From Eubacterium limosum (lineage in GTDB: Bacteria > Bacillota > Clostridia > Eubacteriales > Eubacteriaceae): 64,000 bases of DNA. Positions 49,363-56,860 of this stretch are shown piece after piece. The stretch spans positions 2,232,001-2,296,000 of the forward strand of contig NZ_CP019962.1 in assembly GCF_000807675.2 (NCBI RefSeq). The letters are read 5' to 3'. The notes beneath the pieces were generated by a model. The model did no database searches, was not told the origin of the DNA, and was given only the letters and a program-made list of their open reading frames with translations. Position 1 is the first letter of the stretch; every line of letters starts with the position of its first letter. The position numbers were made by a program, and so were the translations under genes.

Positions 49363-49387
49363 ACGACCGGTAAAAATTACTGGTCGT
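49363..49387. repeat. CCGGTA-type hairpin, copy 2
   Basis: ACGACCGGTAA / TTACTGGTCGT stem (49363-49373, 49377-49387) overlapping the end of the DUF3786-type gene; similar to hairpins at 28647 and 61870. Confidence 0.55.
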
Positions 49388-50051
49388 TATCAGCTGTTTT
49401 TTTGAGCTTCAGCCGATACTGCTCCTGAACCAGATCCGCCACCAGGCTGCAAAGGGCCACACTGTCCTCGATGTGCATCTGCTCACTGATGGTGGCGTCA
49501 AAAAGAAGCTGGAAAGCACCCGGGAAGTCCTCATCACCTGCCCAGAACTGGATGCGGGCAGGAATACGCGGCGCAAAGAACCCCTGTGCACAGAGATCCG
49601 CCTTATCCGGGATGATCGAAAAGCCGATTTCCGGCAGAGCGACCTTCAGTATTTCCGGATCACAGCGGTCATAGAAAACGCCCATGGGTTCAATGACATT
49701 CTTCCGGATGTTCGGGTAAAAAACAGCGCCCCTGGGCTGATCCTTATAAGAAATCCATCTGCCCGAAAGGGGGAGCTCCACAGCGCGGGAAAAATAATTG
49801 AGCGCGATGAGCCGCCAGCTGATCTCAGGCTTTTCGGCCGTGCCTGCAAAAAACACATCACCATTCAGATAGGGAATCGTCAGGGGTTGGCCAAAACAGA
49901 CAAGGCTGAAGCACCCTGTTTTTTCGTCATAAGCGCAGCCGGTGTTTTTTTTGATAACCAAAGGGTCAAGGGCGCGCAGCTTACGCCGGCTTTCATCAAA
50001 GGCACCGCGGTAGGCACCCTCCTCGGAGTTGCTTTTCATATAATCGTACAT
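49377..50051 (-). CDS. DUF3786-type protein
   Basis: 224-aa soluble protein. Motifs typical of the DUF3786 family of anaerobes: a LDPLVIKKNTGCAYDEKTGC stretch, LVCFGQPLTIPYLNG, ISWRLIALNYFSRA and the PIRIQFWAGDEDFPGAFQLL-like segment (here PARIQFWAGDEDFP). Family function is unknown; members often stand near corrinoid or hydrogenase genes. ATG 50051 with GAGG nine bases upstream is preferred; an in-frame start at 50117 would overlap its own promoter. Promoter TTGCCT/TATAAT (minus 50111-50083). Confidence 0.78.
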   Translation of the reverse strand: MYDYMKSNSEEGAYRGAFDESRRKLRALDPLVIKKNTGCAYDEKTGCFSLVCFGQPLTIPYLNGDVFFAGTAEKPEISWRLIALNYFSRAVELPLSGRWISYKDQPRGAVFYPNIRKNVIEPMGVFYDRCDPEILKVALPEIGFSIIPDKADLCAQGFFAPRIPARIQFWAGDEDFPGAFQLLFDATISEQMHIEDSVALCSLVADLVQEQYRLKLKKTADNDQ

Positions 50052-50082
50052 GGTATGATACCTCGCTTTGTAAGTTATGCCC

Positions 50083-50141
50083 ATTATAGCACGCCGGAGC
50101 AGCAGAGGCAATTTCACATTGTGGTGGGTTTGTGCTACAAT
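50083..50141. promoter_or_regulatory. Back-to-back divergent promoters
   Basis: Minus strand: TTGCCT (50111-50106), 17 bp, TATAAT (50088-50083) for the DUF3786-type gene. Plus strand: TTCACA (50113-50118), 17 bp, TACAAT (50136-50141) for the helicase. The two -35 boxes are one base apart, so the two genes probably share regulation. Confidence 0.75.
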
Positions 50142-50168: not shown

Positions 50169-52517
50169 ATGGCCTATGAGGTGGTTGAGCTCTCGGTACG
50201 GGAGCTGGTAGAATTTATTATGCGCTCAGGCAGTATTGACAGCCGCTTTGGAGGCTTTGACCGGGCCGCGGAGGGGGCGCGTATCCATCGAAAGCTGCAA
50301 AAAGAAGCCGGAGAGCATTATCAGGCAGAGGTCACTCTGGCCGAAACCACAGACATTAAGGGCTTTACCTTTAAAATACAGGGCCGGGCAGACGGGATTT
50401 TTGAGGAGGATGGCATTACTGTCATCGACGAGATCAAAACCATCACCAGAAGCCTGGAGGATATGGATGAAGACAGCCGTCCGGTACACTGGGCCCAGGC
50501 TAAATGCTACGGCTATATCTACGGCAGCCAGCAGGGGCTTGACTTCATTGATATCCAGCTCACCTACTATCAGGTGGATACAAAAGAGATCCGGCGGTTC
50601 CGTAAAAGCTTTTCTGTCGTCGAGCTGGAGGATTTCTATCTTGCCCTGTTAGACGCTTATATCCGCTGGGCAGAGATGCAGCGCCAGTGGGTTGAAAAGC
50701 GGGATCAATCCATCCATGCTTTAGATTTTCCTTATAAAACTTACCGCAGAGGCCAGCGGGAGATGGCCGTGGCAGTTTTTAACACCATCAAAAAGAGCGG
50801 TAAGCTTTTCTGCCAGGCACCCACTGGCATCGGAAAAACCCTGTCTACGCTGTTTCCCTCTGTCAAGGCCCTGGGCGGCGGTATGGCAGAAAAGATCTTT
50901 TACCTGACAGCCAAGACCATCACCCGACAGGCTGCTGTGGACGCCTTCACACTCATGAAGGAAAAGGGCCTGGCGCTCCGGACGGTCACACTGACGGCCA
51001 AGGATAAAATCTGCTTTCTGGAGGAACGCAGCTGTAACCCAGACGACTGCCCCTATGCTGACGGCTATTTCGACCGTGTGGGCGATGTGCTCTACGAGGT
51101 GCTCCAGAAGGAAACCGTCTTTTCAAGAGAGAATATCGAGGTCATCGCGCTTGAAAATAATCTGTGCCCTTTTGAGTTTTCGCTGGACCTTACGCTCTGG
51201 TGTGACGCTATTATCTGCGATTACAACTATCTCTTTGACCCGCTGGTGGCCCTGAAGCGCTTTTTTATGGACGAGAAGGGGGACTATGTCTTTCTGGTGG
51301 ATGAGGCCCACAATCTGGTAGACAGGGCAAGGGAAATGTACTCGGCTGCTCTTAGGAAATCTGATTTTCTGAACCTTAAAAGGCAGCTGACCAAAACGGA
51401 CAAACGCCTGAAGGAGCCCCTGAACAAGGTGAACCAGGCCATGATCGACCTGCGCAAAAGCTGCCCGGACAGCCGGTCCCGCATCAGCAGGGAGGAGCTT
51501 GGAGATTTTAACGAGCTTCTGGGCTTTTTCTGCTTTGCCTGTGAGGACTGGCAGAAAAAACACCCGGACCATCCGGCGGCCGACGCGGTGTTAGAGCTCT
51601 ATTTTCAAGCCCGGACCTATTTAAAGATCGCCGAGTTTTATGATGAGCACTATATCACCACCATCCACACCTACGGCAGCGAGGTGATCGTGAAACAGGT
51701 GTGTCTGGACCCGGCGCTGCTGCTGAGGGCAAGGCTGGCCTGCGGCAAGGCATCCGTCCTCTTCTCAGCCACCCTCACCCCTCTGGAATATTTTATCGCA
51801 GTGCTGGGCGGCGAGGAGGAAACCCCGCGCTACGAGCTGCCCTCTCCCTTTGACCCGTCAAAGCTTGGTATTCTGCTGGCAGATACCATCAGCACCCGCT
51901 ATGTGGACAGAGAAGAGAGCTATACCCCCATCGCCGAAATGATCGCTGCCTTTGCGGCAGGGAAAAAGGGCAATTACATGGCTTACTTTCCATCCTATGC
52001 CTACCTGAATGCAGTCTATGAAGTTTTTGGAGAGCGTTTTCCAGACATCCGGTCCATGGCCCAGGAGCGGGATATGGACGAGGCCGCAAGAGAAGCTTTT
52101 CTGGCAGCTTTCGACGCCGAAAATCCCGAAACCCTCATCGGATTCTGCGTGATGGGCGGTATCTATTCCGAGGGGATTGACCTCAAGGGAGACCGTCTCA
52201 TCGGAACCGTTATCGTGGGCGTGGGCCTGCCGCAAATTGGCGATGAGCGCAATATCATCCGGAATTATTATGACGATAAGCAGGGCAGCGGCTTTGCCTA
52301 TGCCTATCAGTTTCCCGGCATGAATAAAGTTCTCCAGGCCGTTGGACGCGTCATCAGGGATGAGGCTGACCGGGGAATGGTGCTCTTTATCGACAGCCGG
52401 TTTTCAAACAGCGGCTACCGCAGGCTCTTCCCGCCGCATTTATCCCATTATATAAAGGTGAGAAATGCAGAGGACGTCCGGCAGGAGACCCGGGAGTTTT
52501 GGAATGAAAATGAGTAA
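50169..52517 (+). CDS. XPD/DinG-like ATP-dependent helicase with N-terminal PD-(D/E)XK-like domain
   Basis: 782 aa. N-terminal ~180 residues resemble a Cas4/RecB-type nuclease (GRADGIFEEDG, then VIDEIK: Asp 75, Glu 88, Lys 90; QAKCYGYIY). The helicase core has Walker A APTGIGKT (218-225), DEAH box 378-381 (VFLVDEAHNLVDRAR), and cysteines 282, 289, 294, 333 placed as the 4Fe-4S ligands of XPD-family enzymes. C-terminal GVGLPQIGDERNII and QAVGRVIRDEADRG are motifs V/VI. Start 50169 has GGGAGGG upstream; a longer frame to the left is not coding. DNA-repair or defence role inferred. Confidence 0.88.
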   Translation: MAYEVVELSVRELVEFIMRSGSIDSRFGGFDRAAEGARIHRKLQKEAGEHYQAEVTLAETTDIKGFTFKIQGRADGIFEEDGITVIDEIKTITRSLEDMDEDSRPVHWAQAKCYGYIYGSQQGLDFIDIQLTYYQVDTKEIRRFRKSFSVVELEDFYLALLDAYIRWAEMQRQWVEKRDQSIHALDFPYKTYRRGQREMAVAVFNTIKKSGKLFCQAPTGIGKTLSTLFPSVKALGGGMAEKIFYLTAKTITRQAAVDAFTLMKEKGLALRTVTLTAKDKICFLEERSCNPDDCPYADGYFDRVGDVLYEVLQKETVFSRENIEVIALENNLCPFEFSLDLTLWCDAIICDYNYLFDPLVALKRFFMDEKGDYVFLVDEAHNLVDRAREMYSAALRKSDFLNLKRQLTKTDKRLKEPLNKVNQAMIDLRKSCPDSRSRISREELGDFNELLGFFCFACEDWQKKHPDHPAADAVLELYFQARTYLKIAEFYDEHYITTIHTYGSEVIVKQVCLDPALLLRARLACGKASVLFSATLTPLEYFIAVLGGEEETPRYELPSPFDPSKLGILLADTISTRYVDREESYTPIAEMIAAFAAGKKGNYMAYFPSYAYLNAVYEVFGERFPDIRSMAQERDMDEAAREAFLAAFDAENPETLIGFCVMGGIYSEGIDLKGDRLIGTVIVGVGLPQIGDERNIIRNYYDDKQGSGFAYAYQFPGMNKVLQAVGRVIRDEADRGMVLFIDSRFSNSGYRRLFPPHLSHYIKVRNAEDVRQETREFWNENE

Positions 52518-52573: not shown

Positions 52574-52681
52574 ATGGTTGAAATAGTGGCGGGATTGTTC
52601 GTGGACTTTTAGTAGTCTGCGAGTAGATCGCTGTACACCGGGAGAAATAAAAGTCTGAGAAAATTCTGGCCATATCATTGA

Positions 52682-53248
52682 CCAAAGCAGCAGGACAACC
52701 GAGGCGAAGCGATTCCGCAGCTGGGTGACAGGTGTGGTGGTGCCCTCTATTTTAAAATATGGAGCCTATATGGCGCCGGACACCTTAAAGGGGATAAGGA
52801 GGACCCTGAGGTCAGAGACCGCCTGATTCAGGCATTGGCGGAGGAAATGGACAAAAGCCGGCTGCTGCAGGAGGAGCTGCTTGTTTTGAAGGAAACCCTT
52901 GGCCGGGCAAGGCCAAAGCTTTTGTTCGCGGACAGTATCATGGCCTCAAAGGGATCCATCTCCATGGGGGATATGGCCAAGCTGCTCAAGCAGAATGGGA
53001 ACGCCATGGGGCGCACCCGGCTATTTGAGACGCTGCGGGGCTCTGGGGTGTTCAGATGTCAGAAGGGCAGATGGAATAAACCGCTGCAGTGGGCTATGGA
53101 GGCCGGCTACTTTGAGATCGAGGAGTGGTGCTCTGGTCCCTCTTATGAAATGCCTGAACGGTGGCTGTGGTCTGCCACCCGGGTAACACCTAAAGGCCAA
53201 GCCTTTCTGATGGATAAGCTGGGTAAAGACAATGAACTATCTGACTGA
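52682..53248 (+). pseudogene. Phage antirepressor (KilAC-type) remnant
   Basis: The frame is open from 52682 with no start codon in a sensible place and gives QLGDRCGGALYFKIWSLYGA, then ALAEEMDKSRLLQEELLVLK and a C-terminal domain FADSIMASKGSISMGDMAKL with LLKQNGNAMGRTRLFETLRG and RVTPKGQAFLMDKL. This is the antirepressor C-terminal (ANT/KilAC) pattern. The DNA-binding N-terminal half is missing. The end overlaps the next phage gene by 17 bp, the usual phage spacing. Confidence 0.75.
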
Positions 53249-53528
53249 GGTGCTGGCCTTTTACAAATGGCTGGAGAGCGCCCGGCTGTCCCCGCTGCTA
53301 CAGGCCTACTGGCACCTGCTGATGTATTACAACAACAAGGCCGCTGTGCTGGGAAAGGATAATGTCTGGTACTGGCCTGTGCGCTTTAATGTGCCTAACA
53401 CCACGCTGATGGCGGCCCTGGGGCTTAAAAACCGCCAGGCGCTCTGGACAAAGAGGCAGAGGCTCATTTTACGAGGATGCCGGGCAGGACGCCTGCTGCG
53501 CCTTTCTGGAAAGTGTGCGGGATTTTGA
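53232..53528 (+). pseudogene. Phage replisome-organiser fragment
   Basis: Starts MNYLTEVLAFYKWLESARLS, LLQAYWHLLMYYNNKAAVLG, YWPVRFNVPNTTLMAALGLK: typical N-terminus of phage DnaD-like replisome organisers. After TKRQRLIL the frame changes to a low-quality tail (RGCRAGRLLRLSG) and stops at 53528. The normal C-terminus is lost by a deletion joining it to another gene near 53465. Confidence 0.75.
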
Positions 53529-53751
53529 CCCTGAAGCCGATGTGGAGGCGGCCAGCCTGACCATGGAACAGAAGGAGACATCGGCGCAGGTCTTTAAGAG
53601 GATGACGCCCTGCCAGAAGGAGTTTTTTTCCTGGCTGTATGAGGAGAAGGGAAGCTTTAAACAACTGAAGGCCCAAAAAGGTGTGAGCCCGGCGGCAGTG
53701 ACAAAAGCATACAAACGGGCTCTGGCCGCTATGCGCAGGAAAGCGGCCTGA
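53466..53751 (+). pseudogene. C-terminal part of a phage sigma-like/ArpU-type protein
   Basis: Open frame from about 53466 reads YEDAGQDACCAFLESVRDFD, then EQKETSAQVFKRMTPCQKEF, SFKQLKAQKGVSPAAVTKAY and KRALAAMRRKAA. The end looks like the helix-turn-helix of sigma-70-like phage late regulators. It begins directly at the deletion joint with the replisome-organiser fragment, without ribosome-binding site, so it is probably not expressed as a normal protein. Confidence 0.65.
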
Positions 53752-53790: not shown

Positions 53791-53869
53791 TTGATTTTTT
53801 TTAGCCGATGGGGTATAATGAAAAATGATAGAGGGCAGGGCTGAGGTTTTATTCAGGTCTGCCTTTTTT
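53791..53869 (+). promoter_or_regulatory. Promoter with immediate hairpin/terminator in the leader
   Basis: TTGATT (53791-53796), 17-bp spacer, TATAAT (53814-53819). Only 15 bp further a stem GGCAG.../...CTGCC (53834-53863) with T6 follows. A transcript of roughly 40 nt would end here unless readthrough occurs into the 53923 gene. Confidence 0.6.
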
Positions 53870-53922
53870 CATAAAATGATGGGGAAGTAAGAAGAAATTT
53901 CCGTTTCGGAAAGGAATCAAAA

Positions 53923-54513
53923 ATGACCGTTCAATTTACAGATCAGTATATTTTCAAAAATGAAGCGTATGATATCACAGCCTTGGAAAATCCGCTGGTG
54001 TTTGATCCTTCGGATTACGGCGCCTTTTCAATTTCCTTCTGCCCGGCCTGCGCCAAAGGCTTTTACGGGCAGTACGGCCTGCGTGAGGGCCGCCTGTGCC
54101 TGAGAAACCTGTACATGACCACCTTGGGCCATTACCCGGAAATCAGGGGCGTGGCTCCAGAGGCAAACCGCCAGGACTTTTTTCTGAGCCTGTTTAAGGT
54201 TTATCGGGGCGTCAATATTCCGGCGGCCTACAGCGGCGGTATGTTTATTGGGCGGGAACTGGTGGAGGATTTTTATGAATCCACAGGTGTTCAGAAGCAT
54301 TATGCCTACAAGGATGTGTATTTACTCAAATTTAAGGATGGACGCTTGAAAAGCGCCCGGGATTATTCTGATAAAATGCAGAAGATCCGGGATGATATCA
54401 TCTGTGATACCAATTATTTCTATTATGATGAGGCCTCCTTTTCCTTTGTGCGCAATCCGTCGTACGATTCGCCCTATGAGGTTAACTGGGAGGATCTGAT
54501 CAAACAGGAATAG
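53923..54513 (+). CDS. Hypothetical protein, 196 aa
   Basis: Soluble protein of unknown family. It starts MTVQFTDQYIFKNEAYDITA, has SFCPACAKGFYGQYGLREG (two cysteines), GHYPEIRGVAPEANRQDFF, a small GGMFIGRELVEDFYESTG and a tyrosine-rich DTNYFYYDEASFSFV end. The CPAC could be redox-active. GGAAAGGA ribosome-binding site. It stands 60 bp upstream of the macro-domain gene on the same strand and may be the first gene of that group, but no function can be stated. Confidence 0.7.
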   Translation: MTVQFTDQYIFKNEAYDITALENPLVFDPSDYGAFSISFCPACAKGFYGQYGLREGRLCLRNLYMTTLGHYPEIRGVAPEANRQDFFLSLFKVYRGVNIPAAYSGGMFIGRELVEDFYESTGVQKHYAYKDVYLLKFKDGRLKSARDYSDKMQKIRDDIICDTNYFYYDEASFSFVRNPSYDSPYEVNWEDLIKQE

Positions 54514-54573
54514 GATGGGCAGGGCTGCATGTCTGGATAATTTTATGCGAAATGGAAGCAGAGGAGGAAAAGG

Positions 54574-55092
54574 ATGGGAAACATTGAACTTTTACTGGGC
54601 GATATTACAAAGGATCACGGTGTGGAGGCTATTGTCAACGCGGCCAACAGCTCGCTGCTGGGCGGCGGTGGCGTGGATGGCGCCATCCACCGTGCGGCGG
54701 GGCCGGAGCTTCTGGCAGAGTGCCGAACACTGAAGGGGTGCCCCACCGGCGGGGCGAAAACAACGGCCGCTTACCGGCTGCCCTGTCAATATGTTATCCA
54801 TACGGTCGGGCCGGTGTGGCACGGCGGCGGGCAGCATGAGGCAGCGCTATTAAGGGATTGTTATGAGAACGCCATGATGCGGACTCAGGAAGCCGGCGCA
54901 CGTTCGGTGGCCTTTCCATCGGTTTCAACCGGGGTATACCGCTATCCGGTGGACCAGGCGGCCGCCATTGCACTGAAGACCGTCCAGGATTTTTGGGATG
55001 CCCATGCGGACAGCTTTGACCGCGTCCTGTTTGTTCTGTTTGACGAGCGGACGCTGGCGGCTTACAAAAAAGCCTATGAAGACCTTAATTGA
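54574..55092 (+). CDS. Macro-domain protein (ADP-ribose/O-acetyl-ADP-ribose hydrolase type)
   Basis: 172-aa single macro domain. ADP-ribose-binding motifs: GDITKDHGVEAIVNAANSSL with LGGGGVDGAIHRAAG (residues about 9-43), AYRLPCQYVIHTVGPVW, and the second loop AFPSVSTGVYRYP. This matches the YmdB/MacroD class that removes ADP-ribose from proteins or hydrolyses O-acetyl-ADP-ribose. GGAGGAAAAGG before ATG. Its stop lies 17 bp inside the following CARF-nuclease gene, so translation is coupled. Macro domains also occur in defence and toxin-antitoxin modules. Confidence 0.93.
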   Translation: MGNIELLLGDITKDHGVEAIVNAANSSLLGGGGVDGAIHRAAGPELLAECRTLKGCPTGGAKTTAAYRLPCQYVIHTVGPVWHGGGQHEAALLRDCYENAMMRTQEAGARSVAFPSVSTGVYRYPVDQAAAIALKTVQDFWDAHADSFDRVLFVLFDERTLAAYKKAYEDLN

Positions 55093-56317
55093 GCTTTATG
55101 ATCCGGCTCATCCGGTCAAAAATATTCTGACAGCGCTGATCTTTAAGCCGGAAGTCCTGATATTTATCGGCCTGAAGGGCAGTCTTACCGACCGGGTCCA
55201 GAGCCTTGTTGAGCGTCTGCTTAGGCAAAAGGGCATTGAGGCAGAGCTGCGTTTTATGGAGACGGATTTAAAGGACGGCAACCGGGTGGTGCGAATGCTT
55301 GAGCAGATTACCTGGGAACATGCGGACTGTGTTTTTGAAATTTCCGGAGGCCCGGATCTGCTCCTGGCCCTGGTAGGGCATTTCTGTGCGCTGCGCGGTG
55401 TTCCGCAGCTGTATAAGGATGTGGACAGCCAGGAGCTGGTCTGGATTACCAGTGAAGGAGAGCGGCGTGAGCCGCTGGTGCTGCCTAAGCTTGGTATCAG
55501 TGATTTGCTGCTGGCCTATGGCGCGCGTCTGGAACGCACCGACCATTATTATCCGGATCTTAGCGACGCGGCTCAGGAGGCCTGTATTGGCCGGATATGC
55601 CAGGTTTTTCTGCGGTTTCTGGAGGAGTGGCCCCATGTCAGCGTCTGGTTCCAGTATGTGTGCCGCAACGCGGCTGAGGAGGACCGGGGCTATGATTGCC
55701 TGGAGGTCAGCGAGAAGCGAGATGGCAGGGTCAATATGCTGCTGCGGCAGTTTAAAAATCTGGATGTGTTTTACGCTTTGCAGAAGGCGGGCGCGATCCA
55801 CGATCTGGCCATTGACAGCCGGCGTATCCGCTTTCGGTTTGAAAATACGGACATCCGGCGGCTTCTCACAAACCAGGGGGTCTGGCTGGAGCTCTGCACT
55901 TATCTGAGCGCCGCCCAAACCGGCGGTTTCGATGATCTGGTCATGAGTGCTGTCATCGGATGGGACTATGAAAACAAGGCTAATTATCCGCAGAATGAAA
56001 TCGATGTGGTCTTGTTGAAGGGGATCCGGGCGCTGTTTATTTCCTGTAAAACCAGCATCACCAAGCGTTCGCCCTATGATTTATATGAGATTAAGACACT
56101 GTGTGAGCGCTTTGGCGGAGACATGGCACAGGCTGTTCTTATTACTGCGGACAATTGTCTGAATACAAATCACAGCCTTTATATCCGGGCAAGGGAGATG
56201 GGCATCGTGATTTTGGATATCAATACCATTAAAAAGGGAAATCTCGGCAGGGAGCTGCTGAAAATTGCAGCAGGGCGTTACCATTTCCCAGAACAGGAGA
56301 AAACTAAAAATGGATGA
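55076..56317 (+). CDS. Card1/Can2-like CARF nuclease (DUF1887 family)
   Basis: 413 aa. The N-terminal part is CARF-like: VLIFIGLKGSLTDRVQSLVE, then EISGGPDLLLALVGHFCALR and a nucleotide-pocket-like layout. The C-terminus is a PD-(D/E)XK nuclease: Glu 272 in GVWLELCTYL, Asp 310 in NEIDVVLLKG and Lys 325 in FISCKTS. This is the DUF1887 arrangement of Card1/Can2, which in type III CRISPR systems is activated by cyclic oligoadenylate. No Cas genes or arrays lie in the window. Start 55076 overlaps the macro-domain gene; an upstream start would lie deep in it. The activating ligand here is unknown. Confidence 0.85.
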   Translation: MKTLIELYDPAHPVKNILTALIFKPEVLIFIGLKGSLTDRVQSLVERLLRQKGIEAELRFMETDLKDGNRVVRMLEQITWEHADCVFEISGGPDLLLALVGHFCALRGVPQLYKDVDSQELVWITSEGERREPLVLPKLGISDLLLAYGARLERTDHYYPDLSDAAQEACIGRICQVFLRFLEEWPHVSVWFQYVCRNAAEEDRGYDCLEVSEKRDGRVNMLLRQFKNLDVFYALQKAGAIHDLAIDSRRIRFRFENTDIRRLLTNQGVWLELCTYLSAAQTGGFDDLVMSAVIGWDYENKANYPQNEIDVVLLKGIRALFISCKTSITKRSPYDLYEIKTLCERFGGDMAQAVLITADNCLNTNHSLYIRAREMGIVILDINTIKKGNLGRELLKIAAGRYHFPEQEKTKNG

Positions 56318-56573
56318 GCAGAAAAAGCCGTTTCTGGTTGTTGGGGTTAAGGGACAGCAATATGTGTACGAGACGGAGGAAAATCTGGAATACAGCGAAT
56401 ACAGGAAGATAAAGGATATTGCAGAGAGCACCACCCACTACGCGGCCAACGCACGGTGCGTCAACCCGGATGTGCTGGCGTATCAGTTTACCACAAGGGT
56501 AAAGGAGGAGCTGGGGGTGGTTCTTATACCCGTTCCTGTCTGGCCTCAGATTGCCGTGAAATTCAAAAAATAG
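56310..56573 (+). CDS. Small protein, 87 aa, third gene of the macro/CARF operon
   Basis: Starts MDEQKKPFLVVGVKGQQYVY, has a helix-forming EENLEYSEYRKIKDIAESTT and ends VLIPVPVWPQIAVKFKK. ATG 56310 overlaps the nuclease stop by 8 bases. AGGAG lies just upstream. No family is recognised. Its fixed position behind the nuclease gene could mean it is an inhibitor or accessory of the module, but that is speculative. Confidence 0.6.
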   Translation: MDEQKKPFLVVGVKGQQYVYETEENLEYSEYRKIKDIAESTTHYAANARCVNPDVLAYQFTTRVKEELGVVLIPVPVWPQIAVKFKK

Positions 56574-56726
56574 AGAACAGCAGATTTTGGTGCCTCCTGT
56601 GTGCCGGGTCTGCTGTTTTTACTTTTGCGCATATTTATTTTTGTCTTTGTTGAAAAGACTATTGTCTTTTGTTTTAAGATGTGGTACACTTTTATACGTT
56701 GCCTTAAGAAAGGCTTAAGATGCAAC

Positions 56727-56809
56727 AAAACTCTGGAGAGTCTCTTTAAAAGAGCGCCGAAGGTGTACCCCCTGTTTTCAGGGCTATCTCTCAGGCAAAA
56801 GGACAGAGC
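56727..56809 (+). ncRNA. Glycine riboswitch (single aptamer)
   Basis: The conserved aptamer parts are visible in order: CTCTGGAGAG, GCGCCGAAGG, then CTCTCAGGCAAAAGGACAGAG (positions 56731 to 56808). It lies 50 bp upstream of the AGCS transporter gene. Only one aptamer is evident, whereas many natural examples are tandem. By family analogy glycine binding switches expression of a transporter or efflux system. Confidence 0.9.
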
Positions 56810-56860
56810 AGTTATTTTGCTTTTGTTCAACTCCAACGACATTAAGAAGGAGGAACAAAA

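Follow-up and report, generated by a model that had tools for sequence, protein, structure and literature searches.

In a window of 64,000 nucleotides (the whole stretch analysed, positions 2,232,001-2,296,000 of a complete one-contig genome of 4,422,837 bases, hereafter G000), we found a conserved operon in which a nuclease gene of the DUF1887 family overlaps the gene of a predicted MacroD-type hydrolase (hereafter macro). The nuclease joins a CARF domain to a PD-(D/E)xK domain. A gene for a protein of no named family (hereafter X) lies upstream of this pair, and a small open reading frame (ORF) follows it (Table 1). The source bacterium probably belongs to the Eubacterium limosum group, as far as its sequence tells; the closest named relative of the nuclease in our scan is that of Eubacterium callanderi FD (96%). 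The operon can be read as a CRISPR-independent, ligand-gated nuclease whose signal would be controlled by the macro enzyme, a reading that we put forward tentatively and hold to be possible rather than probable.

The four genes are closely packed, with successive spacings of +60, -17 and -8 bases. These overlaps, and all the coordinates, had been given correctly by a first-pass annotation made by a model from the letters of the window. Ratios of nonsynonymous to synonymous substitution rates (dN/dS) were between 0.038 and 0.134 across 11 comparisons of the four genes with three other genomes of the genus. X gave 0.044-0.058, macro 0.054-0.134, the small ORF 0.038-0.121 and the nuclease 0.067 and 0.094 (2 comparisons, that with genome G025 being left out because of alignment gaps). 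For the symporter gene that follows the operon, the ratio was 0.017-0.030. Judged by these substitution patterns, all four genes are under purifying selection and the conserved operon is real.

The nuclease passes the cut-off of the Pfam family Card1_endonuc (PF09002; 39.6 vs 26.4 bits), and matches the PADLOC family CARF4--CARF_PDDEXK over residues 1-395 (1.8e-37). An AlphaFold model was computed from a 35-row alignment, whose members are 23-31% identical to the window nuclease, one genus member excepted. It had a mean predicted local distance difference test (pLDDT) of 90.3 and a predicted template modelling score (pTM) of 0.89, and contains an N-terminal CARF domain and a C-terminal nuclease fold. 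In a full-length structure search, the first match was VC1899, the DUF1887 protein of Vibrio cholerae (1XMX; E 2.6e-22, template modelling scores 0.70/0.75, 421 columns), followed by Cdn1, Can2 and Card1. The 35-row profile also aligns with Can2 and VC1899 along most of the length.

The catalytic core is strictly conserved. We collected 115 protein rows, 111 of them distinct over residues 1-389, with 80 loci chosen by query peptides and 30 best-scoring matches from a sample of the class. The E272-D310-K325 core that the first-pass annotation had pointed out is present, and E272, E308, D310, S323, C324 and K325 are invariant in 111/111 distinct proteins. Like Can2 and Card1 (7BDV, 6WXW), the protein has the two-domain fold, and the expected alignment with the Card1 core holds for the glutamate and aspartate of the N-E-x-D motif and for the lysine of the ExK motif. 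The exception is the ExK glutamate, which is Ser323 here, so that S-C-K stands in place of E-C-K. Solved T. brockii Can2 chains also align a serine with this glutamate, but without the lysine, and are therefore only a loose precedent.

The signal pocket also departs from Can2. Four contacts with cyclic tetra-adenylate (cA4) are common to Can1 and Can2, namely S19, T42, K99 and Y118 (PMC7969007, available in part). Counted along the profile alignment, they map to D9, L33, D94 and Y113, so that only one of the four is kept, and the lysine of the TGGTK motif (Can2 Lys99) meets Asp94. Of the 111 distinct proteins, 99 have an acidic residue (D or E) at position 94 and not one has K or R, and 105 have D at position 9. 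As these rows favour close relatives, the whole class sample is a fairer test of position 94. In the 48 of its 391 genomes that bear a DUF1887 gene, the residue was acidic in 28, basic in 8, of another kind in 7 and unreadable in 5. Ser323 was found in 47 of the 48, the exception being an unrelated frame of 1,512 codons. The basic form is usual farther away, since 15/29 phylum proteins carry TGGTK or TGGKK (pattern reading only). In a tree of 125 sequences, from which 8 rows had been dropped, four nucleases encoded together with X and macro formed one clade (local support 0.992). The proteins with a basic residue in the class sample (L175, L180, L182-L185, L188, L190) have the same S-C-K, and may still bind oligoadenylate.

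VC1899 is among the closest known systems. It is the best structural match, is likewise an orphan with CARF and PD-(D/E)xK domains, and has its counterpart of Asp9 at the same strand-1 position. Its pocket was judged unfit for cA4, only weak ribonuclease activity that was not regulated by cA4 was observed, and the protein was suggested to have been "cast adrift" from CRISPR (PMC7969007, available in part). VC1899 differs, however, from the window nuclease by Arg96 at the position of Can2 Lys99 and by a glutamate in ExK, in place of Asp94 and Ser323; the window nuclease also differs by its operon with X, macro and the small ORF.

We then considered CRISPR itself. The genome of the window contains a type I-B set, Cas6-Cas8b-Cas7-Cas5-Cas3-Cas4-Cas1, at about 849-857 kb, 1.43 Mb from the operon. 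No RAMP protein (PF03787) was found in the complete genome G000, which thus gives no sign of type III, nor in three other genomes with the nuclease (G023 and G024, of the same genus, and G029, of another genus of Eubacteriaceae). G025 has three RAMP matches, as well as Cas10 matches, at a distance of about 370 kb from the nuclease. For the class sample, the DUF1887 and RAMP searches were taken as one draw of 391 genomes, as the number is the same and the handles agree where listed. DUF1887 was found in 48 genomes, RAMP in 52 and both in 5 (Fisher p 0.65), i.e. RAMP in 5/48 genomes with DUF1887 vs 47/343 without, in a test run without a known CRISPR-linked CARF family as positive control. In the five genomes with both (G132, G162, G201, G222, G292), no RAMP among the matches listed shares a contig with the DUF1887 gene. 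Finally, no Cas homologue was found at 127 DUF1887 loci with 17 query ORFs taken from two loci, of type III and of type I-B; this search was of limited sensitivity, with the query locus as its sole positive control. The suggestion of the first-pass annotation that the module stands alone was thus upheld, both by the genome and by the lack of association in the class.

These data bear on the possibility that the nuclease is an effector of the Card1/Can2 kind, answering cyclic oligoadenylate that comes from type III CRISPR, from a cyclic oligonucleotide-based antiphage signalling system (CBASS) or from an infecting element. Fold and family are the same, Can2 Y118 is kept as Y113, and G025 holds the RAMP and Cas10 matches just mentioned. 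We nevertheless consider it highly improbable. The absence of RAMP from G000, G023, G024 and G029 and of any association in the 391 genomes goes against it, CBASS enzymes not having been searched for, and so do the replacements of K99 and S19 by D and of T42 by L. The acidic residue at the Can2 lysine position, the replaced cA4 contacts and the serine for the ExK glutamate together make a cA4-activated Card1 unlikely, and the cA4 response that the first-pass annotation had evoked by analogy with Card1 and Can2 is not borne out. Nor did Cas10 help the oligoadenylate reading: the Cas10-palm match of G000 is under the cut-off (21.6 vs 27 bits) and that of G024 barely over it (27.1 bits). The former gene, in which a GGEEF motif is seen by eye, was rejected as a response-regulator/GGDEF-type protein, and the latter (G024:C1:378646-379014, L165) is likely of GGDEF type. 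The Cas10-palm model also gives matches in E. coli.

Loss of the cA4 contacts and of the ExK glutamate might also mean that the nuclease is simply a degenerate protein, as would fit the weak and cA4-insensitive ribonuclease of VC1899 (PMC7969007, available in part). We give this very little chance: the low dN/dS of the nuclease and its six invariant residues in 111 distinct proteins speak against it, and a conserved branch with an acidic pocket makes simple decay less likely. Nuclease residues that are kept, together with purifying selection in Eubacterium, rather suggest a live enzyme with another ligand.

The macro gene product was recognised by Pfam Macro (2.4e-45), by NCBIfam NF001664, the O-acetyl-ADP-ribose deacetylase model (221.3 bits for a cut-off of 200), and by similarity to the closest solved chain, that of MACROD1 (2X47; 3.7e-49). 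Its residues 4-165 align with MACROD1, with an identical NAANSSLLGGGGVDG core. A macro domain with conserved ADP-ribose loops, as first annotated, is thus confirmed, and the protein is predicted from its sequence to be a MacroD-type hydrolase. It differs from known hydrolases of this type in that its gene overlaps that of a CARF nuclease. In the literature searched, mostly papers outside subscription and including the available parts of PMC9503650 and PMC7159879, we met no description of a CARF nuclease gene paired with one for a macrodomain.

X had no match in Pfam, PADLOC, NCBIfam or PHROGs, and none among Protein Data Bank sequences up to E 10. Its CPAC motif, noted at the first annotation, is present in four genus members; distant relatives have one cysteine there and lack the motif. 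X is rare: five of the 67 order genomes have it, each of them with the trio of X, macro and nuclease. In the class sample it was found in 3 of the 391 genomes. In the third of these, G312, X and the DUF1887 gene are on different contigs, and the latter (L172:5007-6230) adjoins genes for proteins resembling, by eye, YicC, RemA and guanylate kinase. Relatives of X at 26-30% identity are found on 4 plasmid records, all cyanobacterial, and three of these plasmids (L167, L168, L169), inspected by eye, had no common neighbour. The plasmid records gave one partial DUF1887 match, and neither X nor the nuclease was found in phage records. The small ORF was found only in the genus among the loci searched, and not in G029.

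Of the five genomes of the genus, four have the order X-macro-nuclease (G000, that of the window, and G023, G024 and G025); in the fifth, G026 (80% complete), neither nuclease nor X was found. In G029, the three genes are in the same order with a nuclease 33% identical to that of the window, and macro and nuclease frames overlap by 29 bases, for 17 in the window. The nuclease gene is present in 6 of the 67 order genomes, one copy being partial. In a scan of named genomes, 119 relatives were found and 80 loci kept, with flanks of up to 6 kb. No such macro was seen in the 1.5-6 kb flanks, partly cut by contig ends, of 78 of these 80 loci, the only loci with macro or X being the two of Eubacteriaceae. 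The same was true of 46 of the 48 class-sample genomes, the exceptions being the window and G029. Of 30 loci from the phylum, many of which were weak matches, only the window had macro or X. The neighbour pair is therefore real but, in the flanks read, confined to a single family: the trio of X, macro and nuclease is kept in two genera, and outside Eubacteriaceae it was absent from the loci searched.

In both genera, X is preceded by a divergently oriented DUF3786 gene (at L012:8872-9522 in the second genus), which is consistent with vertical inheritance. In the window, a DinG-type helicase gene and phage remnants lie between this gene and X. The remnants are absent from G024 and vary among strains, and so are a later insertion rather than part of the unit. 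The position beside prophage debris, to which the first-pass annotation had drawn attention, thus carries no weight, as G024 keeps the operon without it.

For the favoured reading, a CRISPR-independent nuclease gated by a ligand, the following mechanism may be proposed. The nuclease would work as a CARF dimer, by analogy with Can2. A ligand other than cyclic oligoadenylate would bind between the CARF domains and render the nuclease domains active, which would then cut RNA and/or nick DNA. The MacroD enzyme would act on this same signal and remove or trim an ADP-ribose-type ligand or modification, keeping the nuclease off until the signal rises, and X and the small protein might serve as sensor, ligand maker or adaptor. 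The gene overlap and the rarity of X favour such a coupling. It is only the gene coupling, seen in one family, that would point to an ADP-ribose-related ligand.

Several observations weigh against this reading. The serine that replaces the ExK glutamate in 111/111 distinct proteins could mean weak activity. A separate clade (local support 0.959) is formed by the eight genomes with a basic residue at position 94. In the G029 nuclease, this position holds Ser instead of Asp, so that the trio does not depend on an acid there. Between X and macro, G025 has a gene for a calcineurin-like phosphoesterase (L014:8270-9016). The X frame of G029 is split in two, which sequencing error or decay may explain, and AlphaFold gave no usable model of X (5-row alignment, pLDDT 38.4). 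Macro relatives are present in 61 of the 67 order genomes. No macro turned up in the flanks read around the other DUF1887 genes, so that the nuclease branch can do without it, and the macro link may be a lineage-specific addition or incidental.

This last point favours another reading, in which the nuclease acts alone, as orphan relatives from other Clostridia apparently do, macro and X being co-transcribed neighbours with separate jobs. The counts of the named-genome and class-sample loci without macro, and the commonness of macro relatives in the order, both go in its direction. So does the fact that no widely common neighbour was found at the 80 orphan loci (a crude gene call): among families listed at 4 loci or more, each was found at 4-5 of the 80, and shared-neighbour clusters of 13-14 loci were set aside because they look like overlapping frames. 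However, frames that still overlap at a protein identity of about 33%, together with a rare X, exceed what is usual for chance neighbours, and we regard the lone nuclease, too, as conceivable without being probable. At 4 of the 80 orphan loci (e.g. L099:2153-3478), a gene of metallo-beta-lactamase-fold-like aspect, by eye, lies less than 200 bases away on the opposite strand.

The operon could also deal with RNA damage: the CARF domain would sense RNA ends or fragments as the divergent CARF domain of RtcR does, the nuclease would trim or destroy RNA, and macro would free RNA phosphate ends of ADP-ribose or clear by-products of the ADP-ribose phosphate kind. The CARF domain of RtcR is without a basic residue after strand 4 (PMC4012209), a residue missing in both proteins, and the ligands of RtcR are tRNA fragments that end in a cyclic phosphate (PMC7790460, available in part). 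A MacroD-type enzyme and human MacroD1 strip ADP-ribose off RNA phosphate ends (PMC11833690, available in part). RtcR itself is a transcription activator and not a nuclease (PMC7790460). Against this role, the ten proteins scanned at 48.2-58.3 kb of the window gave no match to a family of RNA ligases, cyclases, kinases or 2'-phosphotransferases, the G029 neighbourhood being read by eye only. We consider this role unlikely.

In Thoeris defence, the macro domain sits in the effector ThsA. Macro-containing Thoeris gives an example of a macro domain in nucleotide-signalling defence (PMC11204291); unlike in Thoeris, the window proteins scanned gave no match to a TIR family.

The region ahead of X suggests that expression of the operon is controlled. 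A terminator-like hairpin is located directly after the TATAAT box of a promoter-like site, and is followed by T6; the TATAAT is kept in the 4 genus genomes compared, and the 30 bases of the hairpin are identical in all four. The leader is identical to that of the window at 97 of 103 positions in each of three genus genomes, for only 42-57 of 67 positions in the stretch just upstream. An inverted repeat adjoins the Shine-Dalgarno sequence of X, but computed folds pair these bases otherwise. The promoter scan of the region gave 2 sites vs 3.8 expected in shuffles, i.e. fewer than chance. As the leader is near-unchanged in the genus and its hairpin identical in four genomes, operon expression may be conditional. 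Attenuation in the leader is possible, and its conservation hints at strict control, as would be expected for a harmful effector. At the other end, the fold of 56570-56640, around the terminator-like hairpin, was computed at -25 kcal/mol. The glycine riboswitch aptamer, sole match of an Rfam scan (58.4 bits), precedes a sodium:alanine symporter-family gene, an ordinary arrangement. The helicase has a PDDEXK match just under the cut-off and a strong match to PADLOC typeIV_DinG (3.3e-129), in a PADLOC scan of the window that covered six neighbour proteins.

Table 1. Features of the operon and of its surroundings (window positions).
Feature	Position	Strand	Remarks
DUF3786 gene	49377-50117		divergent from X
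DinG/Rad3-type helicase	50190-52517		start picked inside longer open frame
Phage remnant	52600-53750		KilAC antirepressor, sigma-70 region 4-like ORF
Promoter-like site	53791-53819	+	TTGATT-17-TATAAT ahead of X; consensus match only
Conserved leader of X	53820-53922	+	terminator-like hairpin and inverted repeat
Leader hairpin	53834-53863		
Leader inverted repeat	53898-53912		
X	53923-54513	+	196-amino-acid protein, family without name
macro	54574-55092	+	MacroD-type macrodomain protein, predicted hydrolase, 172 amino acids
DUF1887 CARF + PD-(D/E)xK nuclease	55076 (ATG) to 56317 (stop)	+	413 amino acids
Small ORF	56310-56573	+	87 amino acids, no known family
Terminator-like hairpin and T-run	56573-56620	+	3' of small ORF; stem 56586-56608
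Glycine riboswitch aptamer	56723-56816		

As a whole, what the first-pass annotation had observed is confirmed, and its interpretation as a nucleotide-sensing module is partly supported. Orphan DUF1887 proteins were already known through VC1899, and this one, the only one assayed, was interpreted as a remnant from CRISPR (PMC7969007, available in part). The acidic-pocket branch described here is widespread in Clostridia, being present in 28 of the 48 genomes with DUF1887 of the class sample. A branch whose core is intact save for one substitution and whose ligand position is charge-reversed implies a CARF ligand not yet known. A bolder proposal, which we judge rather unlikely, is that the S-C-K acidic-pocket branch forms a separate class of CARF nucleases with a messenger other than oligoadenylate, which in Eubacterium would be derived from ADP-ribose or nicotinamide adenine dinucleotide and set by the MacroD enzyme and X.

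The Eubacterium operon offers an experimental handle, because an enzyme of ADP-ribose chemistry adjoins the nuclease; its proteins are accessible to production and assay in ordinary laboratory strains. An operon joining an orphan CARF nuclease to an ADP-ribose-handling enzyme hints at an uncharacterised signalling system and, if the bolder proposal is true, this would be a CRISPR-free one with a CARF nuclease as its weapon. Most useful is the wide orphan branch with its charge-reversed pocket, through which the question of what else CARF nucleases sense becomes testable.

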